From Candidatus Zixiibacteriota bacterium (GTDB taxonomy: Bacteria > Zixibacteria > MSB-5A5 > GN15 > PGXB01), in assembly GCA_026397505.1 (NCBI GenBank), contig JAPLUR010000032.1, forward strand, positions 1 to 32,751: a stretch of DNA of 32,751 bases, in the 5' to 3' direction. Both the position numbers and the translations under genes were made by a program. Within the stretch, counting starts at the first letter, position 1. Each line of letters starts with the position of its first letter. The notes beneath the pieces were generated by a model. That model was not told where the DNA came from. It did not search any database and saw only the letters and a program-made list of their open reading frames with translations. Positions 4,288 through 30,081 of the stretch are shown here, one piece after another.

Positions 4288-4311
4288 AAGAGATTCCTTG
4301 TCAAATGGCAT

Positions 4312-4339: not shown

Positions 4340-4548
4340 GGGCGGCTTTCTCTAAAAGGAATCAACAGATTCCCCGGCCAAATGTCAATATATAGTAGTT
4401 TTGTAAGAATGATAACTTCCTCCGGAATATTACAAAATGAGGAATCCCTGATCATATTGATGCTAAGCATCATGGCTGCCGGGTCTGCTGCACAGGATCT
4501 CCGGGACAAGGAAAAACCACCGGAGGCAAAGCACTTTATCCGGGGCGA

Positions 4549-6087: not shown

Positions 6088-6182
6088 AGCTTCCCCATTC
6101 AAAAGGCAATCGACAGGCTGGTCACCGCCGCCAAATTCTGCAGTGACTCTCGCCGTTCCGGTAATATTATAGGAAATGTCTA

Positions 6183-6197
6183 TGACAGAATCTGTCA
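6183..6197. promoter_or_regulatory. Perfect palindrome upstream of comM (possible operator)
   Basis: TGACAGA, one base, TCTGTCA: a perfect 7-bp dyad. It overlaps the stop codon of the upstream lipoprotein and precedes a minus-strand TATAAT (6166-6171) that could serve comM. A good -35 is not visible. An operator role is inferred from symmetry and position only. Confidence 0.3.
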
Positions 6198-6536: not shown

Positions 6537-6597
6537 GTTCATAACCTCCCGATAAAAAAGCGCCCCTGCTATCGTTCAGAGGCACTGAATTTCCTTC

Positions 6598-7044: not shown

Positions 7045-7083
7045 TTCTATTTTTCCTCCATTTTTTTCTCATATCGAATTTCA

Positions 7084-7112
7084 ATTATATATAATGCCCG
7101 GCTGAATATCAA
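7084..7112 (-). promoter_or_regulatory. Promoter of the paired lipoproteins
   Basis: Minus-strand TTGATA (7107-7112), 17 bp, perfect TATAAT (7084-7089), giving a leader of about 33 nt before the ATG at 7044. One of the best consensus matches in the window. Confidence 0.7.
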
Positions 7113-7302
7113 CTACATTTTTTATTTTCTCTATATAAATGACTGGTAAATGGAGCTATCTGTTTAGAAAATTAATCAGGCATAGTTGGAGAATGGCTGA
7201 CTCCCCAACCAATTCTGCAGTGTGCCTGTCTCCGGCCCTGATGACATATTCTGGATAGGATTATGCTCAAAAGGAAATATATATGCTCCGATGGTCCAAA
7301 TT

Positions 7303-7995
7303 TCATCTGCGCAAGCCATTGGAAATTAAGGGGATACTTAATGTGGAGGAAATGTCTGGCACCTCATAATCGGCTTCTTCCCTGGGGTAGCGGACAGCCT
7401 GTTCTCGATGAGGCCCGACCAGAACGCGGACCGCGGTCATTCCCAAAAGCCTGGCAGGCACAATATCATTATCCTGGCGATCCCCTATCATCATGGCCTC
7501 CTGGGGCTCTGAACCCAATCTCTCCAACACTCCCCAAAAATGCCGCAGATCAGGTTTGGTGAAATTGAGATCTTCGGAAACCAGAGTGGAGTCGAAAAAT
7601 TGAAGGGTATTTTCCTTTTCGAGATATTCACGGATGCTTTTCCTCTGGTTGGCCGCCAGACCCAATTTAAAATGACCGTGGAGCTGTTGAAGGACCTCTT
7701 GTGCGCCAGGGCGCATGCGAAAATAGCTGCTGAAAGGGAATCGGTCACATTCGGCTCGAAGCTCAAAAAAGAGATTCTTATCGGGTTTGGACAATTGCCA
7801 GATAATGTATGATATAAATGACGGGGCATAGCATTCGACGGCCCGGGAAAGAGCCGTCTCTATCTCGGAATCGGTTACAGTCTTCCCCCGGCGCTCCAAA
7901 AGCAGCTGCCGGAGATGCTCGTGCCAGGCTTCAATTCCGGCGTCATCATCAATGAGGGGGCCGCCCAGGTCAAAGAGGATAGTGGTAATTCCCAT
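7303..7995 (-). CDS. HAD-superfamily hydrolase
   Basis: A 230-residue soluble protein of the haloacid dehalogenase superfamily. Motif I is FDLGGPL, with nucleophile Asp9; the usual second Asp is Gly11, as in several dehalogenase or epoxide-hydrolase-like HADs. A helical cap follows (about 20-95), then motif II near LAANQ, motif III Lys in FTKPD and motif IV GDRQDND. The substrate cannot be predicted; loss of the second motif I Asp argues against a classic phosphomonoesterase. No clear promoter or strong ribosome site precedes the ATG. It follows ppdK on the same strand but is separated from it by a terminator, so it is probably transcribed alone. Confidence 0.85.
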   Translation of the reverse strand: MGITTILFDLGGPLIDDDAGIEAWHEHLRQLLLERRGKTVTDSEIETALSRAVECYAPSFISYIIWQLSKPDKNLFFELRAECDRFPFSSYFRMRPGAQEVLQQLHGHFKLGLAANQRKSIREYLEKENTLQFFDSTLVSEDLNFTKPDLRHFWGVLERLGSEPQEAMMIGDRQDNDIVPARLLGMTAVRVLVGPHREQAVRYPREEADYEVPDISSTLSIPLISNGLRR

Positions 7996-8033
7996 CGTGC
8001 TATTACCGACAATTCGCCTGCCAAGCAGGAACC

Positions 8034-8059
8034 AAAAAGCCCGCCGCAGGCGGGCTTTT
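8034..8059 (-). terminator. Intrinsic terminator after ppdK (bidirectional)
   Basis: Stem AGCCCGCC / GGCGGGCT with a 3-nt loop, extended by A-T pairs. A T-run lies on each side, so it can act on both strands. It lies just past the ppdK stop at 8082. Confidence 0.85.
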
Positions 8060-8081
8060 CTTTCTTGAATTACTGTGTGAC

Positions 8082-10952
8082 CTACTTGTCGCGCTCGGCA
8101 GTTTTCTTTTTTTCCCTTATAGTGGCCTGCGCCGCGGCCAGCCGAGCGATCGGAACCCGGAAAGGGGAGCAGGAGACATAGTCAAGGCCTGTTTGATGGC
8201 AGAATTCGATCGAATCGGGATCGCCGCCATGTTCGCCACAGATCCCGATCTTGAGATCCGGTTTCACCGATCGCCCTTTGCTTGTTCCCATCTCCACCAG
8301 CTTTCCCACCCCACCCCGATCAATCGAGACAAACGGGTCTTTCGGGAGGATCCCTTTGTCGACATAATAACGCAGGAATTTGCCGGCGTCATCACGTGAA
8401 AAACCCATCACCATCTGGGTCAGATCGTTGGTTCCGAAGCTGAAAAATTCCGCTTCAGCGGCAATTTCATCGGCAGTCAAAGCCGCCCGCGGGATCTCTA
8501 TCATCGTCCCCACATGATACTCGAGGCTCTTTACCTTATACTTCTTAATTGCCTCTTCTGCAATTCGCAGGACAATCTCTTTCTGGTTCTTGAATTCATT
8601 GATATGGCCGACCAGGGGAATCATGATTTCGGGAATAACGGTTTTCTTTTCCCGGATCACCTCGCAAGCAGCCTCGATAATAGCCCTTACTTGCATTTCG
8701 GTGATTTCGGGAAAGACAATTCCCAGCCGGCATCCGCGATGACCCAGCATCGGATTGATTTCTTTCAACTCTTCAATTCTCATCAGGACTTTTTTCCTGC
8801 GGGCCAGAAGCTCATCATAATGTTCATCAGCCTTGTTGAGTTGTGCGATTTCCGCTTCGATCACGGCTTTGTCCGGCAAAAACTCATGCAGCGGCGGGTC
8901 GAGGGTCCGGATTGTCACCGGCAGACCGTCCATAACTTCGAACAATCCCTTGAAATCAGCCTTCTGAAACGGAAGCAGTTTATCGAGCGCCTGTTGGCGC
9001 TCCTCGGTGGAATCGGCCAGAATCATATCCTGAACGATGGGCAGACGGTCCTCGGCGAAGAACATATGTTCGGTGCGGCAAAGGCCTATCCCCTGAGCGC
9101 CGTACTTGCGCGCCTGAATGGCATCGCGGGGAGTATCGGCATTGGCTCTTACCTTCAGTTTCCGAATCTCATCAGCCCAGCTCATAAACTCGGCGAATTC
9201 TCCCGACAGTTCCGGTTCGATAGTCGCGACCGGCCCAACGATAACTTCACCCAGGGAGCCATTGAGAGTAATGATTTCCTTTTCCTTAATTATCAGCTTG
9301 CCGATCTGAAGCTGCTTTTTGGCTTCGCTTACCCGGGCCGCTTCGCATCCGGCCACACAGCATTTCCCCATGCCGCGGGCGACGACCGCCGCATGCGAGG
9401 TCATCCCTCCGCGGGAAGTCAGAATTCCGGAGGCGGCGTTCATCCCCTCGATATCATCGGGATTGGTTTCCTGGCGAACCAGGATAACCGAATTACCGCC
9501 TTTGGCCGCTTTGACGGCGCTCGCGGCCGTGAAATAAACCTCTCCCGAAGCGGCACCCGGCGAGGCCGGCAATCCCCTGGCGATCACTTCATATTCGGCA
9601 CTGGGGTCAAGACGCGGATGCAACAACTGGTCCAATTGGACGGGATCCAGACGCATGATGGCCTCTTCCTTGGTGATAAGCTTTTCCCTGACCATATCGA
9701 CGGATATCTTCAATGCCGCCTGCACCGTCCGTTTACCGGTGCGGGTCTGCAGCATATAGAGCTTCTTCTCCTGAATGGTAAACTCAAAATCCTGCACATC
9801 ACGATAGTGTCTTTCCAGCCGGCTGGTGATTTCTTTAAGTTGTTTATAGACATCCGGCATTTCCTCCCCCAGCTGCGAAATCGGCTGCGGTGTTCTGATA
9901 CCGGCGACAACATCCTCACCCTGAGCGTGGAGAAGGTATTCGCCGTAAAATTCCTTTTCGCCGGTGGATGGATTACGGGTAAAACCAACCCCGGTGCCGG
10001 AATTGTTCCCCATATTGCCGAAAACCATCGCCTGAATGTTGACGGCTGTCCCCAGGTCTCCCGGGATATTGTTGAATTGCCGATAACTGATTGCCCGGGG
10101 ATTATTCCAGGAGCGAAGCACGGCATCGCGGGCCATCCGTAACTGAACATAAGGGTCATCCGGGAAAGACTCCCCTGTTTTCTTCTTGATGATGGCCTTG
10201 AATTTTTTGACAATGTCATTGAGGTCTTCGGCTTGCAGGGAGGAATCCTGTTTGATTTTTCTTTCTTTTTTCCTCATATCAATAACTTCTTCGAATTTTT
10301 CCTTATCGATACCGAGAACGACATTGCCGAACATCTGTACAAAACGGCGATAGTTATCATAAGCAAAGCGTTCATCGCCGGTTTTCTTGATCAATCCTTC
10401 CAGGGTCTCTTTATTCAGGCCGAGGTTAAGAATCGTGTCCATCATACCCGGCATAGAGAATTTGGCTCCGGAACGAACAGAAACCAGAAGCGGATCATTG
10501 GAGTCTCCGAATTTGGCCCCGACCAGAGCCTCTATTTTGGCCATCTGGTTCTCCAGTTCCCGGTCTATTTCGGGAGGCACTTCCAGATTGTTCTGATAAT
10601 ACAGCCGACAGACTTCGGTCGTGATGGTAAAACCGGGGGGAACGGGAACTCCGGCCCGGCACATTTCGGCCAGCCCGGCTCCCTTGCCGCCGAGGATATC
10701 GCGTATAGAACCATCGCCGTCGGCTTTGCCGCCGCCGAAGAAGAAATAGGGGGGATATTCCAATTGAAAACCAGGGATAGATTTGGGCCGAGCTCCTTTG
10801 GATTTGGAGGAAGTCCTTGCATCCTTTTCCTTGTTCTTTGAACTCTTCATTTTGTTCTGTACCATTTTAGTCAAGCCTTTGTTCTTGGGGATTGCCGTTT
10901 TCGCCATCGCCTTCTTCGGTTTGTTCGTCTTTTCCTGTTTCATTGCGACCAT
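8082..10952 (-). CDS. ppdK: Pyruvate, phosphate dikinase with Lys-rich N-terminal tail
   Basis: A 956-residue enzyme interconverting pyruvate, ATP and phosphate with phosphoenolpyruvate, AMP and diphosphate. The ATP-grasp domain starts near FFFGGGKADG and LGGKGAGLAEM (about 70-97). The swivelling domain has the catalytic His in GGMTSHAAVVAR (His about 520). The C-terminal PEP/pyruvate barrel contains GTNDLTQM and ICGEHGGDP. Usual length is about 870-900; the surplus is a roughly 60-residue basic, low-complexity N-terminus. The ribosome site GGGAGG lies directly before the first ATGs (10955 and 10952, the latter better spaced), so the tail is probably translated. Own promoter at 10985-11013 and a terminator at 8034-8059: monocistronic. 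Role is gluconeogenesis or reversible glycolysis. The tail's function is unknown. Confidence 0.96.
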   Translation of the reverse strand: MVAMKQEKTNKPKKAMAKTAIPKNKGLTKMVQNKMKSSKNKEKDARTSSKSKGARPKSIPGFQLEYPPYFFFGGGKADGDGSIRDILGGKGAGLAEMCRAGVPVPPGFTITTEVCRLYYQNNLEVPPEIDRELENQMAKIEALVGAKFGDSNDPLLVSVRSGAKFSMPGMMDTILNLGLNKETLEGLIKKTGDERFAYDNYRRFVQMFGNVVLGIDKEKFEEVIDMRKKERKIKQDSSLQAEDLNDIVKKFKAIIKKKTGESFPDDPYVQLRMARDAVLRSWNNPRAISYRQFNNIPGDLGTAVNIQAMVFGNMGNNSGTGVGFTRNPSTGEKEFYGEYLLHAQGEDVVAGIRTPQPISQLGEEMPDVYKQLKEITSRLERHYRDVQDFEFTIQEKKLYMLQTRTGKRTVQAALKISVDMVREKLITKEEAIMRLDPVQLDQLLHPRLDPSAEYEVIARGLPASPGAASGEVYFTAASAVKAAKGGNSVILVRQETNPDDIEGMNAASGILTSRGGMTSHAAVVARGMGKCCVAGCEAARVSEAKKQLQIGKLIIKEKEIITLNGSLGEVIVGPVATIEPELSGEFAEFMSWADEIRKLKVRANADTPRDAIQARKYGAQGIGLCRTEHMFFAEDRLPIVQDMILADSTEERQQALDKLLPFQKADFKGLFEVMDGLPVTIRTLDPPLHEFLPDKAVIEAEIAQLNKADEHYDELLARRKKVLMRIEELKEINPMLGHRGCRLGIVFPEITEMQVRAIIEAACEVIREKKTVIPEIMIPLVGHINEFKNQKEIVLRIAEEAIKKYKVKSLEYHVGTMIEIPRAALTADEIAAEAEFFSFGTNDLTQMVMGFSRDDAGKFLRYYVDKGILPKDPFVSIDRGGVGKLVEMGTSKGRSVKPDLKIGICGEHGGDPDSIEFCHQTGLDYVSCSPFRVPIARLAAAQATIREKKKTAERDK

Positions 10953-10984
10953 CATGGCCTCCCAACGATACGAATTTTGCGGGG

Positions 10985-11013
10985 ATTATATAAGAGTTTT
11001 TATGAATATGCAA
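10985..11013 (-). promoter_or_regulatory. Promoter of ppdK
   Basis: Minus-strand TTGCAT (11008-11013), 17 bp, perfect TATAAT (10985-10990). It lies immediately after the terminator of the preceding gene and starts a leader of about 26 nt. Confidence 0.65.
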
Positions 11014-11015
11014 CA

Positions 11016-11055
11016 CAAAAAAGGCGGCTTCAGTCGCTTCCGACCGTTGCCGCCT
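11016..11055 (-). terminator. Intrinsic terminator after the small basic protein
   Basis: Minus-strand hairpin with AGGCGGC / GCCGCCT outer arms and an inner GGTCG / CGACT helix, followed by a run of six Ts. It separates the 11075-11398 gene from ppdK. Confidence 0.8.
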
Positions 11056-11074
11056 CTTACATTTGAGAGAGGAA

Positions 11075-11398
11075 CTACATGGTGAAGAGTCGCTCGCCGT
11101 TGATAATCTTCTCCAGGATTTTGAGTGTCTTTTCGACCGGGGAGTGCATAATATCGGACGTATTAAAGGTGCTGCGGAAAACCTCCCGGGGGCAAACAAA
11201 ATTGGCCTTACCGCGGCCGCCCCGTGCCTTCTTCTTGTGGGTCAGATTGTACTGACGCTGGTATTCCTTGGCCTTTTCCTTGTGGAGTTGATAGTACCGC
11301 CGTTGGTACTCTCGACGAGCTTCCGGAGTAGAGAGCTTGCCTTTCCCTTTTTTCCTAGTCCTGGGCTTGGCGCCAGCGGAACTTTCCGTTCTCGCCAT
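11075..11398 (-). CDS. Small basic protein, possibly nucleic-acid binding
   Basis: A 107-residue protein, strongly basic. The N-terminal 25 residues are Lys/Arg/Gly-rich. The middle (about 24-60) holds two similar helical units, REYQRRYYQLHKEK and KEYQRQYNLTHKKK, that recall the Tyr/Lys/Glu repeats next to HNH-type nucleases and other DNA-binding modules. The C-terminal 35 residues are mixed, and no nuclease motif is visible. No family recognised; nucleic-acid binding is inferred from charge and repeats. It has a Shine-Dalgarno-like GAGGTGGGG before the ATG, a possible promoter at 11484-11512 and its own terminator, so it looks like a genuine monocistronic gene. Confidence 0.65.
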   Translation of the reverse strand: MARTESSAGAKPRTRKKGKGKLSTPEARREYQRRYYQLHKEKAKEYQRQYNLTHKKKARGGRGKANFVCPREVFRSTFNTSDIMHSPVEKTLKILEKIINGERLFTM

Positions 11399-11706: not shown

Positions 11707-12507
11707 TCAGGCGGAAGTCTGGGGCTGTCCTTTCTTTCTAAAGAATACGATCAATTCATAAATCCCCAGCAGGATGAATATTCCGCAGGCAACCACCCAG
11801 ACCAAGAGGTTCCCGCCTCCATTTCCCCAGGCCGTTTTAGACCAGTCACCCATAAACTGGATTCTCTGCACAAAGAGAGAAATGCGTCCCATGACAGTAA
11901 AGCCAAATGAGGCGCCGAAGCCGATCATCAGCATCCCGATGCCGAATTTGGCAACTCCATTAAAGACCCCAATGTGCTCCTTGGAAAAGAAGAAATAGAA
12001 CAGGGCCGCAATCATGCCGATGAAAATCAATACCTGTGAATAACCGGAGGTGGGATCGAGGTAACCGGTGCCGAGAAAATTGTCCCAGGAAATGGCCCGC
12101 ATGGTGGAAAACAGCTGCATGTTGACACTGTTTTTCATGGCCAGCGGAATGCTGATACCGGTGGCAATACCGATATAGATGGCAATCGGCCAGCGGCTGA
12201 CCCAGGACCACTTGCGCGAGAATCTGGTCCAGGTCAGGGCGCCGAGAACGGCCGGCACCATATATTCGGCATGGGAGGAGTTGAGCCAAAGGGCATACCA
12301 ACTGCCGTCCTGCAGATAATCAAAGAGGTTCGGCTTAAGGCCGTTATGCCAGAGCAAAATCGTAAAATATCCGGCCGAGACTCCGACCACCAGATGCTCC
12401 GCAAATTTATAGAACGGGTTGTCTCTGTAAAGAAATGAGAAAATACAGAGAGTCAAGATTGCACCCAGCGTCATCCAGAAAAAATTCCCTAATGAAATTG
12501 CTTCCAT
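11707..12507 (-). CDS. Cassette C role 4: polytopic membrane protein
   Basis: A 266-residue integral membrane protein with about seven to eight hydrophobic helices. It shares the role 4 signature: SFLYRDNPFYKFAEHL after the first helix, and later YFFFSKEHIGVF plus MIGFGASFGFTVMGR. Charged residues (Arg, Asp, Glu, His) inside these otherwise hydrophobic blocks are kept in all three cassettes, suggesting structural or transport roles. Unlike A4 and B4, it has an extra C-terminal helix (about 233-255) and a basic tail ending QPQTSA. It is the last gene of the operon, 15 nt after C3 and followed by a strong terminator. Function unknown. Confidence 0.82.
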   Translation of the reverse strand: MEAISLGNFFWMTLGAILTLCIFSFLYRDNPFYKFAEHLVVGVSAGYFTILLWHNGLKPNLFDYLQDGSWYALWLNSSHAEYMVPAVLGALTWTRFSRKWSWVSRWPIAIYIGIATGISIPLAMKNSVNMQLFSTMRAISWDNFLGTGYLDPTSGYSQVLIFIGMIAALFYFFFSKEHIGVFNGVAKFGIGMLMIGFGASFGFTVMGRISLFVQRIQFMGDWSKTAWGNGGGNLLVWVVACGIFILLGIYELIVFFRKKGQPQTSA

Positions 12508-12522
12508 ATTATTCTCACCTCC

Positions 12523-13389
12523 TTACAAATTGCTCTTACGGCGTGAAGTTAAGTAACCGATGTTTCCTATCACAATAAATAGAATGATAAGAAGGTGGGC
12601 ATAAACCTGGATTTTCATTCCCGCGAGGGCCGGTCCGGGATTGTCGGCCAGGGCTTCATACTGGGCCGCGCCCAGAAGCCCCCCCATGATTCCGAACACC
12701 TGCCCGGTGCTGAGATAGGGGTAATAATCGGCTCCCATTACTCCGGTCAATCCCAAAGCTAACCGGAAATTATACCGGGCCTGACCATAAACAATCCACA
12801 TATCGGTGGAACTGCCTGAGGAAATTTCCACCACGCATTTGACATTGTCATAGTTCTTGGCCCCCCTCATCATTGGAAGGCTATCCAGGGGCGTCCCGTA
12901 ATAGTCGGTCGGGAAAGGAATACGAAAATCCTGCCCCATCCCGGTGATGACAAGTGCCGGATATGGTTTGTAACCGAGGAAAGTGTAGTCGATCCCATTC
13001 TTGATTTCGCGGCCTTTGTAAAAAACCCCATTATAGGTCTTATCCTGTTTGATAGAATCGCTGAGATCCCGCAGGGCCAAGTCGACCATTCCGGGGCCGT
13101 TCTGAGACAGCGCGCTGAAAATGATTCGAATCTTCTTGCGGAAAGCCTGCTCCGCAACGGCATACGCCATCGGATGCAGTTCAGCCAATGAACTGGGGTC
13201 GTAGTCGATGGCGATAAAGATGCGGTCATTCTCCTTCAATGAATCAATGTAAGTGAAGATCGATTTGACTTCCTTGTTCTTGTTGATCGGTACCTCGAAA
13301 GGCACAATATAAGTCAGGATACAAACGACGGCCAGAAGAAGGAAAATCCATCGGCGGTCCAGCGACATAAAACGTTTGAATATATCCAT
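12523..13389 (-). CDS. Cassette C role 3: membrane-anchored periplasmic DYDP-domain protein
   Basis: A 288-residue protein with one N-terminal helix (about 13-30), a domain of about 220 residues, and one C-terminal helix (about 260-280) ending TSRRKSNL. Positive charges flanking both helices place the domain outside. The domain starts with IAIDYDPSS (DYDP at 62-65), as in the other two role 3 proteins, and ends with the shared GIMGGLLGAAQYEAL block just before the last helix. It is the shortest of the three: A3 has three N-terminal helices and B3 two. The family is not recognised. DYDP could form a metal or ligand site, but that is only inference. Confidence 0.82.
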   Translation of the reverse strand: MDIFKRFMSLDRRWIFLLLAVVCILTYIVPFEVPINKNKEVKSIFTYIDSLKENDRIFIAIDYDPSSLAELHPMAYAVAEQAFRKKIRIIFSALSQNGPGMVDLALRDLSDSIKQDKTYNGVFYKGREIKNGIDYTFLGYKPYPALVITGMGQDFRIPFPTDYYGTPLDSLPMMRGAKNYDNVKCVVEISSGSSTDMWIVYGQARYNFRLALGLTGVMGADYYPYLSTGQVFGIMGGLLGAAQYEALADNPGPALAGMKIQVYAHLLIILFIVIGNIGYLTSRRKSNL

Positions 13390-13399
13390 GGTTTCCTCC

Positions 13400-14041
13400 T
13401 CAATCCTTTCCCAGATAGGCGCGTTCGATTCCCAGCATCACTTTCATGGCGGTGGCAACGGCCCCCAGACCGACACCGATGATGATGGCTCTCTTGGCGG
13501 CCAGATTGGGAACGTTAAGAAGCCATGAGGCGGTTTTTTCCATATAGGCTCCGACTGGGCCGAGATAAGGATTGAACCGCAACATTACGATAAGCGCTGC
13601 AATCAAAAGCAGGGTGGCCAGCACCGATCGGGCGCGGAAGGCGCGGTACGATGCCGAGGCGATGAAAAAGGCCAACAGCGCAAACATGGTAGCCTGGACC
13701 GGAATCAAAATATTATCAAAAAAATGCACAAACATGTAATTTCTCAGACCTTCGGTAGTGGTAAAGTGCCGCCCGTAATCAAAGCCAAACAAGAGCATGC
13801 TGAACAAGGCCAGAAGCAAGACTATAGAATACTGCCAGCCGAGTCTTTTGTGCCTGATTTTATCCATTGAGACACGCACCAATGACCAGATTCCCAGGGC
13901 CAGGGCAAAGATGCCGATAATATAAATCCATTTCAAAAGGAATTCGTTTACGCTCAGCGACAAATCGTTGGGCACAAACGACTGGATAATCATCACCATA
14001 CCGAAGGCAAACACGAAAATCAAAGGAATTTGTCTTTTCAT
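13400..14041 (-). CDS. Cassette C role 2: six-helix membrane protein
   Basis: A 213-residue integral membrane protein with about six helices. It starts MKRQIPLI, like its paralogs. The signature ATMFALLAFFIASASYRAFR spans helix 4 and a basic loop. The C-terminus keeps AIIIGVGLG and ends ILGIER-like MLGIERAYLGKD. In cassettes A and B the loop after helix 5 contains GR.P.G; here it is RFNPYLG, one of several signs that cassette C diverged most. It follows C1 by 14 nt and precedes C3 by 10 nt. No enzymatic motif is visible; probably a scaffold or channel subunit. Confidence 0.82.
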   Translation of the reverse strand: MKRQIPLIFVFAFGMVMIIQSFVPNDLSLSVNEFLLKWIYIIGIFALALGIWSLVRVSMDKIRHKRLGWQYSIVLLLALFSMLLFGFDYGRHFTTTEGLRNYMFVHFFDNILIPVQATMFALLAFFIASASYRAFRARSVLATLLLIAALIVMLRFNPYLGPVGAYMEKTASWLLNVPNLAAKRAIIIGVGLGAVATAMKVMLGIERAYLGKD

Positions 14042-14055
14042 TTCTTTACCCTCGC

Positions 14056-15285
14056 TTACCTGGTTATGTGGAAGAGTTCAACAAATCTCGTCCACCCAAC
14101 GTTTGCGGCAACAATTCCAATAATGGAGAGGACAATGACCGCCGCTTTGGCATAATCCTGAGCCTTGAGCGAACCAAGCAGAACCGGCTCCCGTCCCAGA
14201 TAGGCTGAAGCAGCATACAATTCCTCCCCGATCAGGGTGTAGTCGCAGGCCACTACAAAGAATGGAATCTGGGCAATTTCATCGGTGCCGGCAATCTGGA
14301 TCGATCCGGCCAGAGCACCGGTTTCCGCCAGAAGAAGCGACTCCGCATAGAACTTGCCCATATAGATATTGGTCGCCGGCAATTCGCGCAGCATCGTCCC
14401 GTTGACCGCCGCCACATAAGGGAACTGCAGGGAAGTAACAAAGTAGACCATATCTTCTTTGTAAGCATCCGGGCGTCCGGCATCCATATAACTGGCCCGA
14501 ACCGTCTCCTGCGCCACCGACATCACGATCGGGTCGTTGCATGGAACAATCAATCTGGTTTGATATTCGGCCACCTTCTTGGCCACCCGCCCCAGAATAG
14601 TAAATGAGGCGATTGTGGCAATATCAGCCGCAGTGCCGAGGCCCAGAACATACAGAATGGGTTTGCCCATTTCCGTGGCGCGACCAATAGCTTCATCAAC
14701 AGCTTCGATTCCCGCCAGTTTGCGGACAAAAAGGTCCGCGCCGGAGCGAGCCTTGTTGATAAAGAAAAGCATCACGGCCATAAAACAGATCACGAAAACC
14801 AACACCGTGGTTCGCGCCTTGTTGAACCACTGGCCGGTCGCCTGAACGGGACCGAATACCGGCGAATCCGCAAAGACCAGACTATCGGCTGTGATCGCCT
14901 GAACTTTGTAATAGAAATCGATATTGTTGGCCATATAATCGTTATCACCCTCGGCCGAGCCGCCGGCATCGTTATACTGATTGATTCCCGATGCAGCGAC
15001 ATTGCGTTCCGCAAACGGCCCCTCTTTGGATGCCGCCCGGAAAATTTTATATCCCAGGACATTTTTCAGGCCGCCGGCGTCATCGGGCGATAATGACCAA
15101 CTGAGCGAAATTGAATGACCATTATCATCCTCCGAATCCCTGGCGGTCAGATCTCCGACCGGTGCCGGGGGCTGAACAGCTATTTGAGCGGGACGGGCTG
15201 TAGTCCCGGTACTGTCCTGGCCGTTGGCCAGAGGGACAAGCCAGGGCAGCAGCAGACTACAGATTATCAAGATTTTTAGCTTCAT
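14056..15285 (-). CDS. Cassette C role 1: Fn3 - membrane helix - conserved cytoplasmic domain
   Basis: A 409-residue protein. Signal peptide (MKLKILIICSLLL, cleavage near NGQ), one fibronectin type III-like domain (about 40-140), a transmembrane helix (about 163-182), then about 200 conserved residues beginning with the basic FVRKLAGIEAVDEAIGRATE and containing ACDYTLIGEELYAASAYL, and a final helix (about 385-402). The conserved part resembles what I recall as the DUF6754-type family; I cannot verify this. Positive charges after helix 1 place it in the cytoplasm. Compared with A1 and B1, the DMD..QT motif is missing (GLGTAADIATIAS) and SRSLVM is replaced by NDPIVM. It starts 25 nt after B4, the widest gap in the operon. 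Confidence 0.85.
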   Translation of the reverse strand: MKLKILIICSLLLPWLVPLANGQDSTGTTARPAQIAVQPPAPVGDLTARDSEDDNGHSISLSWSLSPDDAGGLKNVLGYKIFRAASKEGPFAERNVAASGINQYNDAGGSAEGDNDYMANNIDFYYKVQAITADSLVFADSPVFGPVQATGQWFNKARTTVLVFVICFMAVMLFFINKARSGADLFVRKLAGIEAVDEAIGRATEMGKPILYVLGLGTAADIATIASFTILGRVAKKVAEYQTRLIVPCNDPIVMSVAQETVRASYMDAGRPDAYKEDMVYFVTSLQFPYVAAVNGTMLRELPATNIYMGKFYAESLLLAETGALAGSIQIAGTDEIAQIPFFVVACDYTLIGEELYAASAYLGREPVLLGSLKAQDYAKAAVIVLSIIGIVAANVGWTRFVELFHITR

Positions 15286-15310
15286 AAAAACCTCGCATAT
15301 TTATTTAGAT

Positions 15311-16126
15311 TCAATCAATTATTCCCAACCAATTATGGAAAAGAAAAGTGAGACGTCCCACCAGAATCGAGATACGTCCCATGACCGTATATCCAAACGA
15401 GGCGCCGAAGGTTATCATCAAGATCCATATTCCCATCTTGGAGGCGCCGCCGAAAAATCCCTTATGTTCTTTGGAAAAGAAGAAATATACCAATCCGCAA
15501 AAGACGCCCAGAAAAATTACCCAATTGGAAAGACTCAGGGCGAATTGTCCGGATGCGGATAGAGAAAAATCAGAGAAAAAGGCTCCGCTCCCTCTCCAGT
15601 TAACCAGAAGCGGCACAAAAGTATTGCTCACCTGAGTGATGAAATCGGAGCGAAGATATCTCACCAGGTTCAGCCCGGCGGTGGTACCGACAATGAAAGC
15701 CAGCGACCATCGTGAAAGCCAGCCGGCTTTGGATGAAAGCCGCATGAGAAGCAGAACGCCGAAAACAAGCGGCACGAAATAGTAAATCGTGAAATCTTTG
15801 AATGGAACCCCGAAGTAAGCGCTCAGTCCGGAAGAAATTCTGGGAAAAAGATTTCCAACGATAGTCGACCAGAAACCGACGCTCATCCAGTAAGCGGCGG
15901 AAACCCCCACAAAAAGGTGCTCCGCAAATTTATAATAAGGATTGTCTTTGTATAAAAAAGAGAGAATGGCCAGAGTCAGGAAGGCGGCCAGAGTTACATA
16001 GAAGGCATCAGCCAGGGGTGAAGAAGCGGTCGCCGAGACGGATGAAGAACTTCCCGCCCGGGTCAGCCAGCCGGCCACAAAGGCAATCAGCACGGCAACG
16101 AGAACTATTGAAGATGATCGCTTCAT
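15311..16126 (-). CDS. Cassette B role 4: polytopic membrane protein
   Basis: A 271-residue integral membrane protein. It has the role 4 signature SFLYKDNPYYKFAEHLFVG and the later YFFFSKEHKGFF with MITFGASFGYTVMGR. Compared with A4 it carries an extra N-terminal hydrophobic segment of about 35 residues (MKRSSSIVLVAVLIAF, then a Ser-rich linker), either a signal peptide or an additional helix, and a longer loop around 80-110. It ends HNWLGIID, matching KDWLGLIR in A4. It starts 10 nt after B3. Function unknown; conserved charged residues in membrane blocks suggest more than simple anchoring. Confidence 0.83.
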   Translation of the reverse strand: MKRSSSIVLVAVLIAFVAGWLTRAGSSSSVSATASSPLADAFYVTLAAFLTLAILSFLYKDNPYYKFAEHLFVGVSAAYWMSVGFWSTIVGNLFPRISSGLSAYFGVPFKDFTIYYFVPLVFGVLLLMRLSSKAGWLSRWSLAFIVGTTAGLNLVRYLRSDFITQVSNTFVPLLVNWRGSGAFFSDFSLSASGQFALSLSNWVIFLGVFCGLVYFFFSKEHKGFFGGASKMGIWILMITFGASFGYTVMGRISILVGRLTFLFHNWLGIID

Positions 16127-16136
16127 ATCTCTTTGC

Positions 16137-17045
16137 CTAAGACCGTCTCTTCCTTATGAAATAGGTAATATTACCAATCACGACAAAGGCCATAATGATC
16201 AGGTGGGCCAAAGTCTGCGGCCCCATCATTTTTATCCCCGGTTGAGGGGCATTGATAAGGCGGGGATATTCCTTCTTCAATTCCGACTCGTATTCGGCGG
16301 CCCCTTTGATGCCCCCGAGAAGGCCGAGCAGCTGGTTGGGGTAATAAGGATACAGCAATGGCGCCGTCACGGCTGCACATCCGCCCGCGGTCGGAATATG
16401 ACCGGGATCGCCGGCAAAAAGAATCCACTCTTTAACACCAGGCAAACCGCCGCCGACCGATACCAACAAATTCATATCGCGCAGAGATCTTATTCCGTGC
16501 ATTATTTCCATGGAATCAATATTCACACCGTTCACATCGGTAAGGTACATTTTCCTGATGTCCGTTATAATCACGTTCAGGACACCGGTACCACCCGCCT
16601 TATAACCCAAATTGACATAATCGATGCCGTCTTTCTTCTCCGGGAATTCTTTTTTGATAATCTCATCAACGGCGGTCACGATGAGCGGCTGGCCGGTTGC
16701 CCAGAGTGTCATGAAATATACCCTGAGTCCTTTGGCCATAGCGTGCCGTACAAACGCATCGGTCATCGGCCCTACCTCGGGCGCCATAGCGGGGTCATAA
16801 TCATAGGAAATCAATACTTTCGAATTGGCCGGCAGTTTTTCAATCTGATCATAGACTGCCTTGACAATCGGCGTCGCTTTTTCGGAAAAAGATATTTTGA
16901 AAAGAATGGGAGCAGCCACGGCCAGTCCAATGAAAATGAAGATGATACGTCGCTCGACTTCGCGCCCCTGAATAGAGCGAATCAGAAACCAGACGAGTCC
17001 GACCCCGATAATCAGAAGAGAAGTGACCAATCCCAGGTTATTCAT
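16137..17045 (-). CDS. Cassette B role 3: membrane-anchored periplasmic DYDP-domain protein
   Basis: A 302-residue protein with two N-terminal helices (about 5-23 and 33-50), a periplasmic domain with SYDYDPAMAPE (DYDP at 82-85), the conserved GLLGGIKGAAEYESEL block and a C-terminal helix ending FIRKRRS. A basic loop between the first helices and the basic C-terminus support the topology. The domain has alternating beta/alpha character (KVLISYDYDP, then RVYFMTLW, then IDYVNLGY), suggestive of a Rossmann-like alpha/beta fold, which is inference. Its ATG overlaps the stop of B2 by 8 nt (ATGAATAA), so translation is probably coupled. Confidence 0.83.
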   Translation of the reverse strand: MNNLGLVTSLLIIGVGLVWFLIRSIQGREVERRIIFIFIGLAVAAPILFKISFSEKATPIVKAVYDQIEKLPANSKVLISYDYDPAMAPEVGPMTDAFVRHAMAKGLRVYFMTLWATGQPLIVTAVDEIIKKEFPEKKDGIDYVNLGYKAGGTGVLNVIITDIRKMYLTDVNGVNIDSMEIMHGIRSLRDMNLLVSVGGGLPGVKEWILFAGDPGHIPTAGGCAAVTAPLLYPYYPNQLLGLLGGIKGAAEYESELKKEYPRLINAPQPGIKMMGPQTLAHLIIMAFVVIGNITYFIRKRRS

Positions 17046-17715
17046 TGTCGACCCCCAAGTAGGTTCTCTCCACGCCCAGTATCAGTCGCAGCGACATTGA
17101 AATTACCCCCAGAGCGATACCAATCATAATCGCCCTCTGCCCGGCCAGATTGGGCGAGGACATAATCCATATCGCCAGGTTGGGAATTTGCAGAAGCGAA
17201 AACGATTCGGGAATCCAGCCGGTGGCATATGTCCCTAAAGGGGTGCGCCCGAGCAGAATAATAAAAGCGGAAATCAGGAGAATGGTGGCCTCTCTGTTCT
17301 TGGCGCGGAAAGCGCGATAGGAAGCGGAGGCGACATAGAAAGCCAGGAGGGCGTACATGGTGGAAGAGAGCGGAAAAAATATGCGATAGTACAGGGTCTG
17401 GAAGAGAGAACCGGTGGCAGTGACATCACCGGTAATGCCGCTTGGATTACCTATCTTGAAAAGCCCCGCGGCCAGCATCAGGAAAAATCCCAACAGCGTC
17501 ACCAGGGAAAATCCCCAATCTTTCTGTTGCTTGTAAAGCCGGTTGCCGTGAATTCTCACCAAATTCCCGCCGCCGAGAAAGAAAGCAAAAACGGCGATAA
17601 TATCGAAGAAAAGAGAAAAGTCCTCCCCCATTCTCTCGACAGGGGGGAAAAAGACGGAGACGACCAGAATCGTGCCGACCACAAAGGTGATAATTAATGG
17701 GACCTGTCTTTTCAC
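17038..17715 (-). CDS. Cassette B role 2: six-helix membrane protein (GTG start)
   Basis: A 225-residue integral membrane protein. The frame is open back to an ATG at 17766, but that would overlap B1. The GTG at 17715 gives MKRQVPLIITF, matching the exact starts of A2 and C2, and restores a 13-nt gap, so I chose it; an AGAGAG-type ribosome site precedes it. Conserved blocks are STMYALLAFYVASASYRAFR, then EATILLISAF and GRTPLG, and a C-terminal GQRAIMIGIALG ending ILGVERTYLG. About six helices. It overlaps B3 by 8 nt. Function unknown; probably part of the same complex as B1, B3 and B4. Confidence 0.83.
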   Translation of the reverse strand: MKRQVPLIITFVVGTILVVSVFFPPVERMGEDFSLFFDIIAVFAFFLGGGNLVRIHGNRLYKQQKDWGFSLVTLLGFFLMLAAGLFKIGNPSGITGDVTATGSLFQTLYYRIFFPLSSTMYALLAFYVASASYRAFRAKNREATILLISAFIILLGRTPLGTYATGWIPESFSLLQIPNLAIWIMSSPNLAGQRAIMIGIALGVISMSLRLILGVERTYLGVDNE

Positions 17716-17728
17716 GGTAAATCTCTCT

Positions 17729-18970
17729 TTAATTTTGCACGGTAAAAAGTTTGACCATGTATTCACTCAACTTTACAAAGAACTGGTTGCCCCAGGCGAG
17801 CGAAATGGTCACGGATATCGTCCCGATGATGATAAGCAACATGGCGACCAATTTCCCCATATCCTGTCCCTTCAGTGAACCGAGTTGTTTCGGTTCATTG
17901 GAAAGGTAAGCGGATGCGGCAAAGAGCTCTTCACCGATAAGGGTGTAGTCGCAGGCGGCGACAAAGAAAGGCAACTGGGCCGGCTGGGCGGTTCCGGCGA
18001 TTTGAATGGCGCCGATGGAATTTCCGGTTTCGGCAAGAATCAGCGACTCAGCGTAGAAAGCGCCCAGATAAAAACAGGTGGCGGGTTTCTGGCGCACCAT
18101 GATACCGTCAACCGCCGCAACATAACCAAATTGCTCATCGGTGATATAATTCACCATGTCATCATTATATGCGTCAGGCCGCCCTGCCCCAATATAAGCT
18201 TCCTTGATCGTCTCGCGTGCCGTGGTCATCACGAGCGAGCGCGACACCGGCATGTTAATGCGGATATCATAATCGGCGACCATCTTGGCCACCCTACCCA
18301 GGAGCGTAATACCGGCCAGAGTCTGGACATCATCCATATCCAAAATACCGGGAACAAACAGGATTGGGCGTCCCATTTCGGTGGCCCGGCCGATGGCCTC
18401 ATCAATCGCTTCCAGCCCGGCGATTTTTCTAATGAACAGTTTTCCGCCTCGCTTGGCATGAGAGATAAAGTAAATCACGGCGCCGGCGATAAGGAATCCG
18501 ATGACAAACAGATTGAGCAGATTCCAATTGACAATATCCATTTCCGGGATGACCGGTGCGGTGGCCTCGGAAAAGACAGCCCGACCGTCATAATTAAGGG
18601 CAACTTTATAGCGATAACTCTTTCCCCGGTTGATCCCCTGATCCTTAAAGGAATATTCTCCCGGGGCAGCCACTCCAACAGGCGCAAAATCATTCGATTC
18701 TTCCAGGGCACGGAATATTTCGTAAGGACCAACCGAACCGATTCCGTGATCATCGGCAGAGGCTCGCCAGTAAACGACGATAGCCTCGCCCCGATCGTAC
18801 TTGAAGTCGCGGGCGGAAACCTCGGTCGGCGGAGCCGGTCTCGGGCCTGTTACGGAATCAGGAATGGCCGGCGGCGTCTGCGCGACAGCCATTACCGACG
18901 ACATTATCAAAATCAAGAGCAATTGAGAAATCAGGCAAAGGGGAACAGGCAATTTGCTGTCGCAGATCAT
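17729..18970 (-). CDS. Cassette B role 1: Fn3 - membrane helix - conserved cytoplasmic domain
   Basis: A 413-residue protein with an N-terminal hydrophobic signal, one Fn3-like domain (about 45-145), a helix near 150-172, then the basic KRGGKLFIRKIAGLEAIDE and the conserved domain. Shared with A1: PGILDMDDVQTLAG, PVSRSLVM, GAGRPDAYNDD, DEQFGYVAAVDG, AGTAQPAQLPFFVAACDY and GSLKGQDMGK; a final helix follows. Similarity to A1 is visibly closer than to C1. It starts only 2 nt after the stop of A4, so cassettes A and B are joined as closely as genes within a cassette. The function of the conserved domain (DUF6754-type from memory) is unknown. Confidence 0.86.
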   Translation of the reverse strand: MICDSKLPVPLCLISQLLLILIMSSVMAVAQTPPAIPDSVTGPRPAPPTEVSARDFKYDRGEAIVVYWRASADDHGIGSVGPYEIFRALEESNDFAPVGVAAPGEYSFKDQGINRGKSYRYKVALNYDGRAVFSEATAPVIPEMDIVNWNLLNLFVIGFLIAGAVIYFISHAKRGGKLFIRKIAGLEAIDEAIGRATEMGRPILFVPGILDMDDVQTLAGITLLGRVAKMVADYDIRINMPVSRSLVMTTARETIKEAYIGAGRPDAYNDDMVNYITDEQFGYVAAVDGIMVRQKPATCFYLGAFYAESLILAETGNSIGAIQIAGTAQPAQLPFFVAACDYTLIGEELFAASAYLSNEPKQLGSLKGQDMGKLVAMLLIIIGTISVTISLAWGNQFFVKLSEYMVKLFTVQN

Positions 18971-18972
18971 CG

Positions 18973-19620
18973 CTACCTAATCAGTCCCAGCCAATCCTTG
19001 AAAATGAACTCCATGCGACCGATTAAGAGAGACATACGACTCATGACAGTATAGCCAAAGGAGGCGCCAAAAGTAATCATAATGGTCCAGATGCCGACCT
19101 TGGCCACGCCGCCGAATACTCCCTTATGCTCGCGGGAGAAGAAGAAATAGACCAGCCCGGTGAATGTCCCGGCGGCAATGACGATATTACCGATGGTATC
19201 ATAAGCGGAAGCCGAGAAGACAGGCTGGCTAAATCTGGTGCTGAACAGGGGCATGAGAGTGCTGGACACCTGCAGCATGACGTTGGATGAAAAATAATTG
19301 ATGAGATAGAAGCCGGCGGTGGCTCCCACAACAAAGGCCAGCGGCCAGCGGGAAATCCATCCAATCTTAGGGGCCAGACGCAGAATCATCATAATTCCCA
19401 GCACCCCGCCCACCAGAAGCATATAGTTGGGATTTTCACGGCTAAGGCCGGCCCAGAAAAGACCAAGAATGTTATCAAAGAAAAGGGTTACAAACCAATA
19501 TCCGGCGGAAATGCCCACAAAAATCGATTCGCACAGCTTATACCAGGGATTGTCCCTATACAGGAAGGAGATAATCCCCAGAGTGAAAAAAGCGGCTACC
19601 CAAATGCCGAAAAGTTGCAT
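18973..19620 (-). CDS. Cassette A role 4: polytopic membrane protein
   Basis: A 215-residue integral membrane protein, the smallest of the three role 4 proteins and perhaps closest to the core fold. About six helices. Signature: SFLYRDNPWYKLCESIFVG near the N-terminus, ISRWPLAFVVGATAG midway, YFFFSREHKGVFGGVAKVGI and MITFGASFGYTVMSR near the C-terminus. The ATG shares one base with the stop of A3 (1-nt overlap). Conserved Arg, Asp, Glu and His residues in membrane-proximal blocks recur in B4 and C4. Function unknown. Confidence 0.84.
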   Translation of the reverse strand: MQLFGIWVAAFFTLGIISFLYRDNPWYKLCESIFVGISAGYWFVTLFFDNILGLFWAGLSRENPNYMLLVGGVLGIMMILRLAPKIGWISRWPLAFVVGATAGFYLINYFSSNVMLQVSSTLMPLFSTRFSQPVFSASAYDTIGNIVIAAGTFTGLVYFFFSREHKGVFGGVAKVGIWTIMITFGASFGYTVMSRMSLLIGRMEFIFKDWLGLIR

Positions 19621-20609
19621 TACTCTTTTCCCTTCTTCCTTTTTTCACCCAAGAAGTAGGCGACGTTCCCGATAAAGATAAAGGCAATCACAATCACATG
19701 CGAGAATGACTGGGGAAGCATATAGAAAGTAGCCGTACCAACCTTATTGGTTGCTTTTTCAAATTCGGCTGCGCCGCTCAAACCTCCGAGAAGCCCTTTC
19801 AGCTGCCCGGAACGAAGGTATGGGTACATTCCTGTGGCCTGGACGCCGGTATTGCCGGCGCCCATTTTCAGGCCATAACGGTCAACAGCCACCTGAACCC
19901 ATTCCACGGTGCCGGGATAACCGGCCGACAGGTTAAAAGAATAATCAATATTGGAGAAATTACTCACATCTTTAAGAAGCGGGATGGAATCATAGGGAAT
20001 ACCGGAGACATCGCGCGTGAACATGCTCTTGAAACTGGTTCCCATCCGCTGGATGACGAATTCATTCCCGGTTTGGAAGCCAAGATTAACATAATCGACA
20101 TGGCGCCTTAAATTCTTCGCGACCACGCTCGGATCCTGGAGCGCTATCTGGAGAGCCAGTTCGGCCTGCTGTGGTCCCTGCGGCCAGAGACCCATAATGA
20201 TTATTTTCAAATCACGTTCCAGGCAGAGACGGAAAAATGATTCGGCCATCGGCTGCAGTTCGGGGGCAGAGGCCGGATCATAATCAAAGGAAACCAGAAT
20301 CTTCGAACCCCGTTCAAGCTGAGCCACCCAGTCATAAACCGTCTGTACTTCGGGAGAAACCCTGATCGGCTGCTTAACATTCATGAAGAAAGGCAAAACG
20401 ACGGCAATACCGACAAAAAGGAATACAACCCGCCGCCCTACATATTGGCGCATGATAGTTCTGAACAGAATATACAGCAGGGCAAGCCCAATGAGAGCTA
20501 TGATCAGAGAAGAGACGGTGGGGGAGAAATTAATCGGCTTGGGCACGAGGAAATAGAGGATAAGAATAATCGCCAGCGTTACGGAATAGATAATAAAATC
20601 CCTGTTCAT
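19620..20609 (-). CDS. Cassette A role 3: membrane-anchored periplasmic DYDP-domain protein
   Basis: A 329-residue protein with three N-terminal helices (about 5-22, 32-50, 60-77), a periplasmic domain starting VSFDYDPASAPEL (DYDP at 109-112), a conserved GLLGGLSGAAEFE block and a final helix followed by GEKRKKGKE. Charges (MRQYVGRR between helices 2 and 3; basic C-terminus) place the domain outside. It is the longest of the three role 3 proteins; the paralogs lost or never had the extra helices. The gap to A2 is 3 nt and it overlaps A4 by 1 nt. No catalytic signature is recognised. Confidence 0.84.
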   Translation of the reverse strand: MNRDFIIYSVTLAIILILYFLVPKPINFSPTVSSLIIALIGLALLYILFRTIMRQYVGRRVVFLFVGIAVVLPFFMNVKQPIRVSPEVQTVYDWVAQLERGSKILVSFDYDPASAPELQPMAESFFRLCLERDLKIIIMGLWPQGPQQAELALQIALQDPSVVAKNLRRHVDYVNLGFQTGNEFVIQRMGTSFKSMFTRDVSGIPYDSIPLLKDVSNFSNIDYSFNLSAGYPGTVEWVQVAVDRYGLKMGAGNTGVQATGMYPYLRSGQLKGLLGGLSGAAEFEKATNKVGTATFYMLPQSFSHVIVIAFIFIGNVAYFLGEKRKKGKE

Positions 20610-20612
20610 CCC

Positions 20613-21266
20613 TTAATCCCCTCCCAGGTAGGATCGTTCGATCCCCAGAATAATGCGCAACGAGGTGGAAACGATGCCCAAAGCAATACCAATCATAATC
20701 GCCCGCTGACCGGCCGAATTTATAAAACTCATAATCCAGATGGTTATTTTCGAGGGCATGAAGCTTTCGGGAATGCCCAGCGCGCCGCCGATCGCATCAC
20801 CAACCGGCACACGCCCGATCATGACAAAGAAAGCGGCCAGAAGGAGTAGGGTGGCCTCGAGATTTCTGGCCCGGAAAGCTCGATATGAGGCGGAGGCGAC
20901 AAAGAAAGCCAAGAGTGCAAACATGGTGGCCGAGAGAGGCGAATATACATAAGTGTAAAGCCAGTCAAACCCGGTCCCGGCATCACGAAATTGAGTCCAG
21001 CTTGATGACCCGATAATAACTATCAGCAGAAATGAAAGAATGATAATGACCGAATAACCCCAGTCGGCTCTTTTGCGATAAATTTTATCGGCGGAAATTT
21101 TTATCAGGTTCAAGGCTCCCAGCCAGATGGCACAGGCGCCGATGATGGAGAACCAATCGGAGAACCAGTTGTTGAATTGGTTGAATGGCGCATGAGGAAT
21201 GAAATACTGAAGGACGAAAATGACGCCAACGACACCGGTTATGAGCAGGGGGATTTCTCGTCTCAT
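20613..21266 (-). CDS. Cassette A role 2: six-helix membrane protein
   Basis: A 217-residue integral membrane protein with about six helices. It starts MRREIPLLITG. Conserved blocks: SATMFALLAFFVASASYRAF, then EATLLLLAAFFVMIGRVPVG, and SAGQRAIMIGIALG ending ILGIERSYLGGD. The basic SYRAFRAR loop is probably cytoplasmic and is the best-conserved part across the three cassettes, so it may contact the cytoplasmic domain of role 1 (inference). It lies 14 nt after A1 and 3 nt before A3. Confidence 0.84.
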   Translation of the reverse strand: MRREIPLLITGVVGVIFVLQYFIPHAPFNQFNNWFSDWFSIIGACAIWLGALNLIKISADKIYRKRADWGYSVIIILSFLLIVIIGSSSWTQFRDAGTGFDWLYTYVYSPLSATMFALLAFFVASASYRAFRARNLEATLLLLAAFFVMIGRVPVGDAIGGALGIPESFMPSKITIWIMSFINSAGQRAIMIGIALGIVSTSLRIILGIERSYLGGD

Positions 21267-21280
21267 CGCAGATTAACTCA

Positions 21281-22510
21281 CTATCCCATCACCGTAAAAA
21301 ATTTGGAGAGCTGGAAAATATTAAAAGTTTCCAAGATAATCCCGATCAAAATAGATACCAGAATGATCGCCTTGCCCATGTCCTGACCCTTGAGCGAGCC
21401 CAGGAGCTTCGGTTCGCGCGACAAATAAGCTGAAGCGGCGAATAACTCCTCGCCAATAAGAGTATAATCGCAGGCGGCAACAAAAAATGGCAACTGCGAG
21501 GGCTGGCCTGTGCCGGCAATCTGTATGGCGCCAATAGAATTCCCCGTTTCAGACAATATCAGCGATTCGGCATAAAAATTACCCATAAGGAATATGGTTG
21601 CCGGCTTTTCTCTGACCACCATGCCGTCGATACCGGCTGCATATCCGAACTGGTCATCAGTCAAGTAATGCACCTGTTCATCGCGAAAGGAATCGGGACG
21701 CCCGGCCTTTGCATAAGCTTCTTTGACAATCTCTTTGGCCGTGACCATTACCAGGGAACGGCTGACCGGCACTTCAATCCAGGTTTCATATTCGGCCGCC
21801 AGTTGCGCCACGCGTCCCAGGATAGTAACACCGGCAATGGTCTGGACATTATCCATATCCGAAGTGCCGGGTATGAAGAAGATCTTCTTCCCCATTTCGG
21901 TGGCTCTGCCTACTGCCTCATCGACGGCATCCAGTCCCGCGATTTTGCGGATAAACAGCTTCTTCCCGGCCTTAGCCTGATTTATGAAATAGACAATCAA
22001 TGTGCAGAGAATAATCATTCCGACAAAGACATTGAGCCGGCGGAAATCAAACCATTGAGCAGAGGATCTGACCGGGCCGACAGTATCCGATTCCGAAGTT
22101 ACCTGCCAGCTTGTCCGCCCCTCCAATTTCACCGAGTTCACCGCCAAAATCTTATAAAAATAGTCTTTATTATCATTGGTGCCATTGTCCATATATTGAT
22201 TGGATTGAGCCGGAACCTCGCCGATTTGGTCAAATGGTCCCTCCTGCTTTTCAGCCCTAAGGATTTTATAGGCAACAACTTTGCCATCAACATGATCATC
22301 AACCGAAAGGTCCCAATTAATAACAACCGCCCCGCCGGCATCATCGGGATTGTCTTTGGCCAAAACATTCCTGACCATGACAGGTGTCACATCAGGAGGG
22401 GGTGACTGCAAAGAATCGGTGGCTACGTCAGTCGCCGGGGTTTGACCGAAAAGCAAACCTGCGCCGAGGAAGAGAAATGCGCTTAAGATTATAACGGCCT
22501 TGACTTTCAA
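21281..22510 (-). CDS. Cassette A role 1: Fn3 - membrane helix - conserved cytoplasmic domain (TTG start)
   Basis: A 409-residue protein, first gene of the operon. Signal peptide 1-22 (ending LLFGQ), Fn3-like domain about 38-135, helix about 160-178, conserved cytoplasmic domain about 185-378 with PGTSDMDNVQTIAG and AACDYTLIGEEL (about 345-356), and a final helix about 381-397. No ATG precedes the signal peptide. The frame is open to another TTG at 22615, but the TTG at 22510 yields MKVKAVIIL, like the MKLKILIIC start of C1, gives the same length as C1, and has AGGGA just upstream. The leader terminator at 22528-22566 would lie inside the longer version, another reason to prefer 22510. The conserved domain resembles DUF6754-type proteins from memory; function unknown. 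Confidence 0.83.
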   Translation of the reverse strand: MKVKAVIILSAFLFLGAGLLFGQTPATDVATDSLQSPPPDVTPVMVRNVLAKDNPDDAGGAVVINWDLSVDDHVDGKVVAYKILRAEKQEGPFDQIGEVPAQSNQYMDNGTNDNKDYFYKILAVNSVKLEGRTSWQVTSESDTVGPVRSSAQWFDFRRLNVFVGMIILCTLIVYFINQAKAGKKLFIRKIAGLDAVDEAVGRATEMGKKIFFIPGTSDMDNVQTIAGVTILGRVAQLAAEYETWIEVPVSRSLVMVTAKEIVKEAYAKAGRPDSFRDEQVHYLTDDQFGYAAGIDGMVVREKPATIFLMGNFYAESLILSETGNSIGAIQIAGTGQPSQLPFFVAACDYTLIGEELFAASAYLSREPKLLGSLKGQDMGKAIILVSILIGIILETFNIFQLSKFFTVMG

Positions 22511-22673: not shown

Positions 22674-22702
22674 AATTTAACCAAAGCCACTTACTCTGTC
22701 AA
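22674..22702 (-). promoter_or_regulatory. Promoter of the twelve-gene cassette operon
   Basis: Minus-strand TTGACA (22697-22702), 17 bp, TAAATT (22674-22679). The start near 22667 gives a leader of about 157 nt to the TTG at 22510, containing the candidate attenuator and a possible 12-codon open frame (22657 to 22619). Confidence 0.65.
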
Positions 22703-30059: not shown

Positions 30060-30081
30060 TATTCTCACCAACTCTGGACGA

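Follow-up and report, generated by a model that had tools for sequence, protein, structure and literature searches.

Relatives of MutL are ASKHA proteins thought to reset partner proteins using ATP. A cytoplasmic protein of the ASKHA fold, accompanied by small multi- and single-transmembrane subunits, is also found in the secretion and pilus platforms of the PilM/GspL type. Here, we analyzed a stretch of 32,751 nucleotides from Candidatus Zixiibacteriota bacterium (contig JAPLUR010000032.1 of assembly GCA_026397505.1; hereinafter, the window), which contains three tandem copies of a four-gene membrane cassette (roles 1-2-3-4) that is tied, in other genomes, to a module of three genes (S, M, and B) including a MutL-like one. 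Role 1 of the cassette contains DUF6754, whose Pfam entry (PF20539) is that of one domain of unknown function; the literature that we found describes neither the cassette nor its remaining subunits (roles 2, 3, and 4) nor the S-M-B module. No paper naming DUF6754 or PF20539 was found there, and the domain is absent from the main text of a catalogue of unknown genes from uncultivated taxa (PMC10849945).

The run occupies the minus strand from position 22510 (or 22615) down to 11707 and comprises twelve open reading frames (ORFs), divided into cassette A (from role 1 at 21281-22510 down to 18973), cassette B (18970-15311), and cassette C (15285-11707). All twelve ORFs of the first-pass annotation, which had described three copies separated by 25 nt or less, were confirmed. 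Successive intergenic spacings are 14, 3, -1, 2, -38, -8, 10, 25, 14, 10, and 15 nt, where the 38-nt overlap depends on the mechanical start of role 2 in cassette B. As a small correction, the start of role 1 in cassette A is uncertain (TTG at 22510, GTG at 22540, or TTG at 22615). The conserved motifs assigned to each role were likewise recovered in every copy; some differ at one or two residues and read ALLAF[FY][VI]ASASYRAFR for role 2 (ALLAFFVASASYRAFR in cassette A) and [LM]GG..GAA[EQ][YF]E for role 3. Identity between copies (46 to 54% for role 1, 41 to 53% for role 2, 32 to 36% for role 3, and 43 to 52% for role 4) was far above chance, and the role-specific profiles found 114 to 131 homologues each in loci of other genomes.

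Order and adjacency of the four roles hold across phyla, a point that the first-pass annotation had suggested checking by a search for co-occurrence. The order 1-2-3-4 is kept by 118 complete cassettes from 85 loci; their genes lie a median of 7.5 nt apart, and the gap is 50 nt or less in 93% of cases. Pairing cassettes of different loci on the basis of one role predicted how they paired on another in 79% of cases, vs 45% under a null that shuffled cassettes within loci. Along similar lines, in seven zixibacterial loci with three tandem cassettes, positions 1, 2, and 3 each formed a pure clade in all four role trees, indicating that the triplication is older than the spread of those lineages, with the four genes remaining together ever after. 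The triplication of the four-gene cassette is thus ancient and involved the whole cassette.

The idea that the four products work as a unit is supported, and inheritance of whole cassettes is shown by tree congruence and by the position clades. The unit extends beyond the four genes to S, M, and B, which had been missed. Outside the close relatives of the window, one or two cassettes follow these three genes (S-M-B-1-2-3-4); loci of this kind carry the labels Zixibacteria, Planctomycetota (including anammox lineages), CSSED10-310, Armatimonadota, and others. S (ca. 120 aa) has no family. M (ca. 605 aa) matches PF13941 (MutL) over its full length and above the curated cut-off (1e-125 to 2e-130), and we take it to be a MutL/GlmL-like ASKHA protein of the activator/reactivase superfamily. 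B (ca. 375 aa) has an N-terminal region resembling a barrel-sandwich hybrid, and we view it as an adaptor. The B gene was present in 93 of 98 Zixibacteria genomes (75 of the 76 of high quality), mostly in single copy, and in most of them this single B stands alongside four to six cassettes. One cytoplasmic set of M, B, and S serves several cassettes, five in the case of the host.

Among 119 planctomycete genomes, role 3 was present in 32, which included all 31 carriers of DUF6754 (Fisher P = 9e-28); B occurred in 29, of which 27 also had DUF6754 (P = 3e-20), and MutL in 33, again with 27 shared (P = 7e-17). B was similarly associated with MutL (P = 5e-21), all of these P values being calculated ignoring kinship among genomes. 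The dispersal of homologues named earlier as a sign against a joint function was seen only locally, in three planctomycetes with a split set, where role 1 adjoins B (two of the three also have M next to them) and role 3 lies elsewhere, each part still being present once. M-B fusion proteins were also detected, in seven loci separate from cassettes (L147, positions 5806-8724, L148, and L150 to L154); these are MutL plus B-like fusions of ca. 850 to 990 aa in Zixibacteria, Fermentibacteria, WOR-3, and Cloacimonadota. Housekeeping genes surround these fusions and one extra M-B pair, and they gave no functional hint.

Role 1 (21281-22510, 17729-18970, and 14056-15285 in cassettes A, B, and C, respectively) carries the cytoplasmic domain that the first-pass annotation had recognized as conserved and left unnamed; it is DUF6754, matched over its full length in all three proteins with 393 to 423 bits vs a curated cut-off of 27 (E values of 3.9e-127, 2.2e-125, and 7.6e-118). 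Around 15 of its charged or amide residues are essentially invariant. The cassette B protein belongs to a separate clade found across Zixibacteria. The fibronectin type III domain (FN3) previously proposed for role 1 was borne out by a family profile matching titin FN3 at 3e-29 and by the AlphaFold model of the cassette A protein (pLDDT of 92.7), in which the first ca. 100 residues past the signal peptide resemble FN3 structures, the results of the fold search being dominated by FN3; no single sequence of the window reached the Pfam FN3 cut-off.

For roles 2, 3, and 4, no Pfam, NCBIfam, PADLOC, or PDB family was found at cut-off, nor any structural relative in PDB; among the cassette proteins, FN3 alone has such relatives. 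Role 2 (20613-21266, 17038-17766, and 13400-14041) was identified by its profile and its motif; the true start of the second copy is probably the GTG at 17715. Role 3 (19620-20609, 16137-17045, and 12523-13389) gave a confident AlphaFold model for cassette A (pLDDT of 95.7), in which the predicted periplasmic domain, bearing the DYDP motif, has six beta/alpha units. Foldseek found no significant fold for it in PDB (best E value of 3.8e-3, with a TM-score under 0.3). Role 4 (18973-19620, 15311-16126, and 11707-12507) was recognized by its profile and by the motifs SFLY.DNP.YK and FGASFG.TVM.R. DUF6754 and the role 3 domain both consist of six beta/alpha units followed by a transmembrane segment (TM); a shared origin had no profile support (hhalign probability of 1.2) and is not proposed here.

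Hydropathy and the positive-inside rule fit the topology proposed initially, with periplasmic domains in roles 1 and 3, a cytoplasmic domain in role 1, and polytopic roles 2 and 4. In role 1, a signal peptide is predicted to be followed by a periplasmic FN3, a TM, the cytoplasmic DUF6754, and a last TM at the C terminus. Role 3 would be anchored by one or more N-terminal TMs, with the periplasmic domain and a C-terminal TM after them, and five to six TMs are predicted for each of roles 2 and 4 (about six for role 2 of cassette A). Polar residues (H304, N315, and E31) are conserved in or beside the membrane segments of roles 3 and 4. Conservation is highest in the part facing the cytoplasm and lowest in the part facing the periplasm, where the ends differ freely from one cassette to another and comprise FN3, long inserts, HEAT repeats (in one role 3), and FHA (in one role 2 loop). 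The HEAT repeats form a long array inserted within the periplasmic domain of a role 3 protein (L104, positions 4075-6006). The FHA-like domain occurs in a planctomycete role 2 (L136, positions 4594-5853), in the TM3-TM4 loop; this loop is predicted to be periplasmic, an odd site for a phosphothreonine-binding fold.

Residue coevolution was evaluated by mean-field direct coupling analysis of 283 nonredundant cassettes, a modest effective depth of ca. 190 to 230 sequences, against a null that preserves phylogeny by re-pairing each cassette with another of the same locus or with its nearest relative. The top pairs linked residue 74 of role 2 to residue 29 of role 4 (z of 14.4 vs a null maximum of 7.0), residue 267 of role 3 to residue 120 of role 4 (11.6 vs 6.5), and residue 187 of role 2 to residue 260 of role 3 (10.9 vs 7.2). 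The last pair swaps K-D for Q-Q and connects a predicted periplasmic loop of role 2 with the role 3 helix 255-266, with the secondary pair 2:179-3:259 next to it. Secondary pairs between roles 2 and 4 (2:111-4:34 and 2:78-4:33) fall on the same or adjacent helices as the top one, and those between roles 3 and 4 (3:303-4:32 and 3:307-4:196) use the C-terminal TM of role 3. Restricted to multi-cassette loci, the 2-4 signal stayed clear (11.6 vs 7.9), the 2-3 signal was marginal (7.6 vs 6.9), and the 3-4 signal was not above the null (7.0 vs 7.8). Together, these couplings support direct contacts, as predicted from sequence, between roles 2 and 4, 2 and 3, and 3 and 4.

DUF6754 was detected in all 98 Zixibacteria genomes sampled, mostly in four to six copies; 14 well-known genomes searched as controls had none. 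The host genome (3.43 Mb), whose nearest named relatives are Zixibacteria, has five cassettes, three in the window and one each on contigs C53 and C119, both of them single and lacking FN3. On C53, two adjacent role 1 genes without FN3 (L007, positions 4901-6707) lie beside panC- and metK-like genes. About a dozen other phyla, mostly uncultured, carry the cassette, often in single copy. In a scan of species genomes, where phylum labels are those of the depositors, it appeared in contigs labelled CSSED10-310, Eisenbacteria, WOR-3/Stahlbacteria, TA06, Fermentibacteria, Edwardsbacteria, Poribacteria, Latescibacterota, Coatesbacteria, Mcinerneyibacteriota, Armatimonadota, and anammox Planctomycetota (Scalindua and Anammoxibacter), while a contig labelled Cloacimonadota contained role 1. 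The single-cassette genomes that the first-pass annotation had proposed to look for are represented by 61 loci with one detected cassette (some on truncated contigs). Several of the 31 planctomycete carriers are assembled as single multi-megabase contigs, which may make single-copy organisms amenable to study.

We propose that S-M-B and 1-2-3-4 form an ATP-powered inner-membrane machine of a previously unrecognized class, in which paralogous complexes of differing periplasmic specificity share one ATPase/adaptor module, and we give this reading a probability of roughly 45%. Each cassette would produce one inner-membrane complex, with a core in which the polytopic roles 2 and 4 pack together and also contact role 3, the alpha/beta domain of role 3 being in the periplasm. 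Role 1 would cross the membrane, carrying an interchangeable periplasmic end (here, FN3) and the nearly invariant cytoplasmic DUF6754. M, B, and S would make up a soluble module, common to all the cassettes of a genome, that docks on the cytoplasmic side to power or reset the complexes. We infer that M, acting via B docked on DUF6754, would use ATP to drive conformational cycles of this domain and hence of the membrane core, and that the force or conformational change would be passed to the periplasmic domains. Most likely, the machine would transport or assemble envelope components at the expense of ATP, with several periplasmic specificities per cell. Several observations weigh against this proposal. 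The subunits yielded no domain known from transporters or secretion, and the ATPase activity of M is predicted from family membership. In the host, M, B, and S lie away from the cassettes in one copy each, M and B together on contig C61, upstream of Tol-Pal-like genes, and S on C81. Four planctomycete genomes with DUF6754 lack B and four lack MutL, although some may be incomplete. Finally, the multi-subunit complex suggested initially is backed by coevolution for roles 2, 3, and 4, but role 1 coupled to them only at background level (z of 7.0 to 7.4), as would be expected for a domain that hardly varies.

It is conceivable, if rather unlikely, that the cassette encodes a membrane-bound enzyme or receptor, in which FN3 and role 3, on binding in the periplasm, switch a catalytic or ligand-binding DUF6754, with M and B maintaining a cofactor or redox state instead of powering transport. 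The number of invariant charged or amide residues in DUF6754 exceeds what a scaffold needs, the periplasmic parts are variable in a receptor-like manner, and the superfamily to which M belongs consists of activators and reactivases. Yet no kinase, cyclase, or known output domain was found, nor any regulator recurring beside the cassettes, and a receptor would not usually have two conserved polytopic subunits. An ion-translocating or energy-converting complex, with B as a distant counterpart of the barrel-sandwich subunit of RnfC/NqrA, appears clearly less plausible. The polar residues at the membrane segments of roles 3 and 4 would suit it, as would the similarity of B to RnfC_N (21.2 bits) and NQRA_N (14.6 bits), but both scores are under the curated cut-offs (25.6 and 25), the cassettes have no recurrent neighbour that is a flavin, iron-sulfur, or quinone subunit, and several cassettes with different periplasmic ends would be hard to explain.

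The strong match of M to PF13941 (1e-125 or better) might point to a system maintaining cobalamin enzymes, with M as a true GlmL. We hold this to be very improbable, given that M proteins score 227 to 236 bits vs the GlmL cut-off of 475 and 160 to 172 bits vs the family cut-off of 204; for the host M, the identity was rejected at 235.6 bits for the NCBIfam equivalog and 171.6 for the family. A glutamate mutase partner was also rejected for most genomes, the E subunit (PF06368) being absent from the host (other cobalamin mutases were not searched) and over cut-off in only 5 of the 98 genomes of the phylum, vs B in 93 and DUF6754 in 98. As for the genes being unrelated neighbours, co-inherited by chance or operon hitch-hiking, the three planctomycetes with role 1 by B and role 3 elsewhere would fit; this view is largely refuted by 1:1 co-occurrence even when the set is split, by whole-cassette duplication, and by coevolution above the phylogeny-preserving null, and we leave it hardly any weight.

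Downstream of the cassettes in the window, a pyruvate phosphate dikinase and a 107-aa basic protein (8082-11398) recur at this place in 11 and 8 zixibacterial loci, respectively; they are conserved as neighbours in zixibacterial loci only and were not counted as parts of the system. A candidate promoter of the 12-gene run (TTGACA-17-TAAATT, minus strand, 22674-22702) is a consensus match that is not above chance for one site in the scan. A low-GC pair (ca. 0.39) on the minus strand (28319-30071), with a DUF5131/radical-SAM-like protein overlapping one that matches the PADLOC models PDC-M41A/B for candidate defence systems, looks like an inserted defence candidate, and a protein with a haem-binding domain of the ethylbenzene dehydrogenase type (EB_dh) is encoded at 1398-2453.

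A membrane system that is universal in a phylum (98 of 98 genomes) and has no described function is rare, and a core part of the workings of these cells has apparently gone unnoticed. DUF6754 and three uncatalogued protein families are joined here into one testable machine, and the MutL/GlmL superfamily gains a membrane context unrelated to glutamate mutase. If the proposal is true, such a machine exists throughout Zixibacteria, is common among other phyla that have been little studied, and is also used by some planctomycetes.

M contains the whole domain of the MutL/GlmL family (PF13941; GlmL, OR-4), but it is ca. 130 residues longer, is operonic with membrane proteins, and falls under the GlmL/OR-4 and family cut-offs. 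The barrel-sandwich-like region of B, below cut-off as it is, comes with no sign of other RnfC domains in B or of other Rnf/Nqr subunits beside it. A known anti-phage defence system was rejected, as none of the seven proteins had a PADLOC match at an E value of 0.01. The general layout may be likened to that of the PilM/GspL-type platforms, although the Pfam search of the subunits gave no match to any secretion or pilus family of that type. Sequence comparison placed three of the four cassette proteins and S in no family and M in none of the named GlmL families; it matched no known system and suggests that this one has not been described before.

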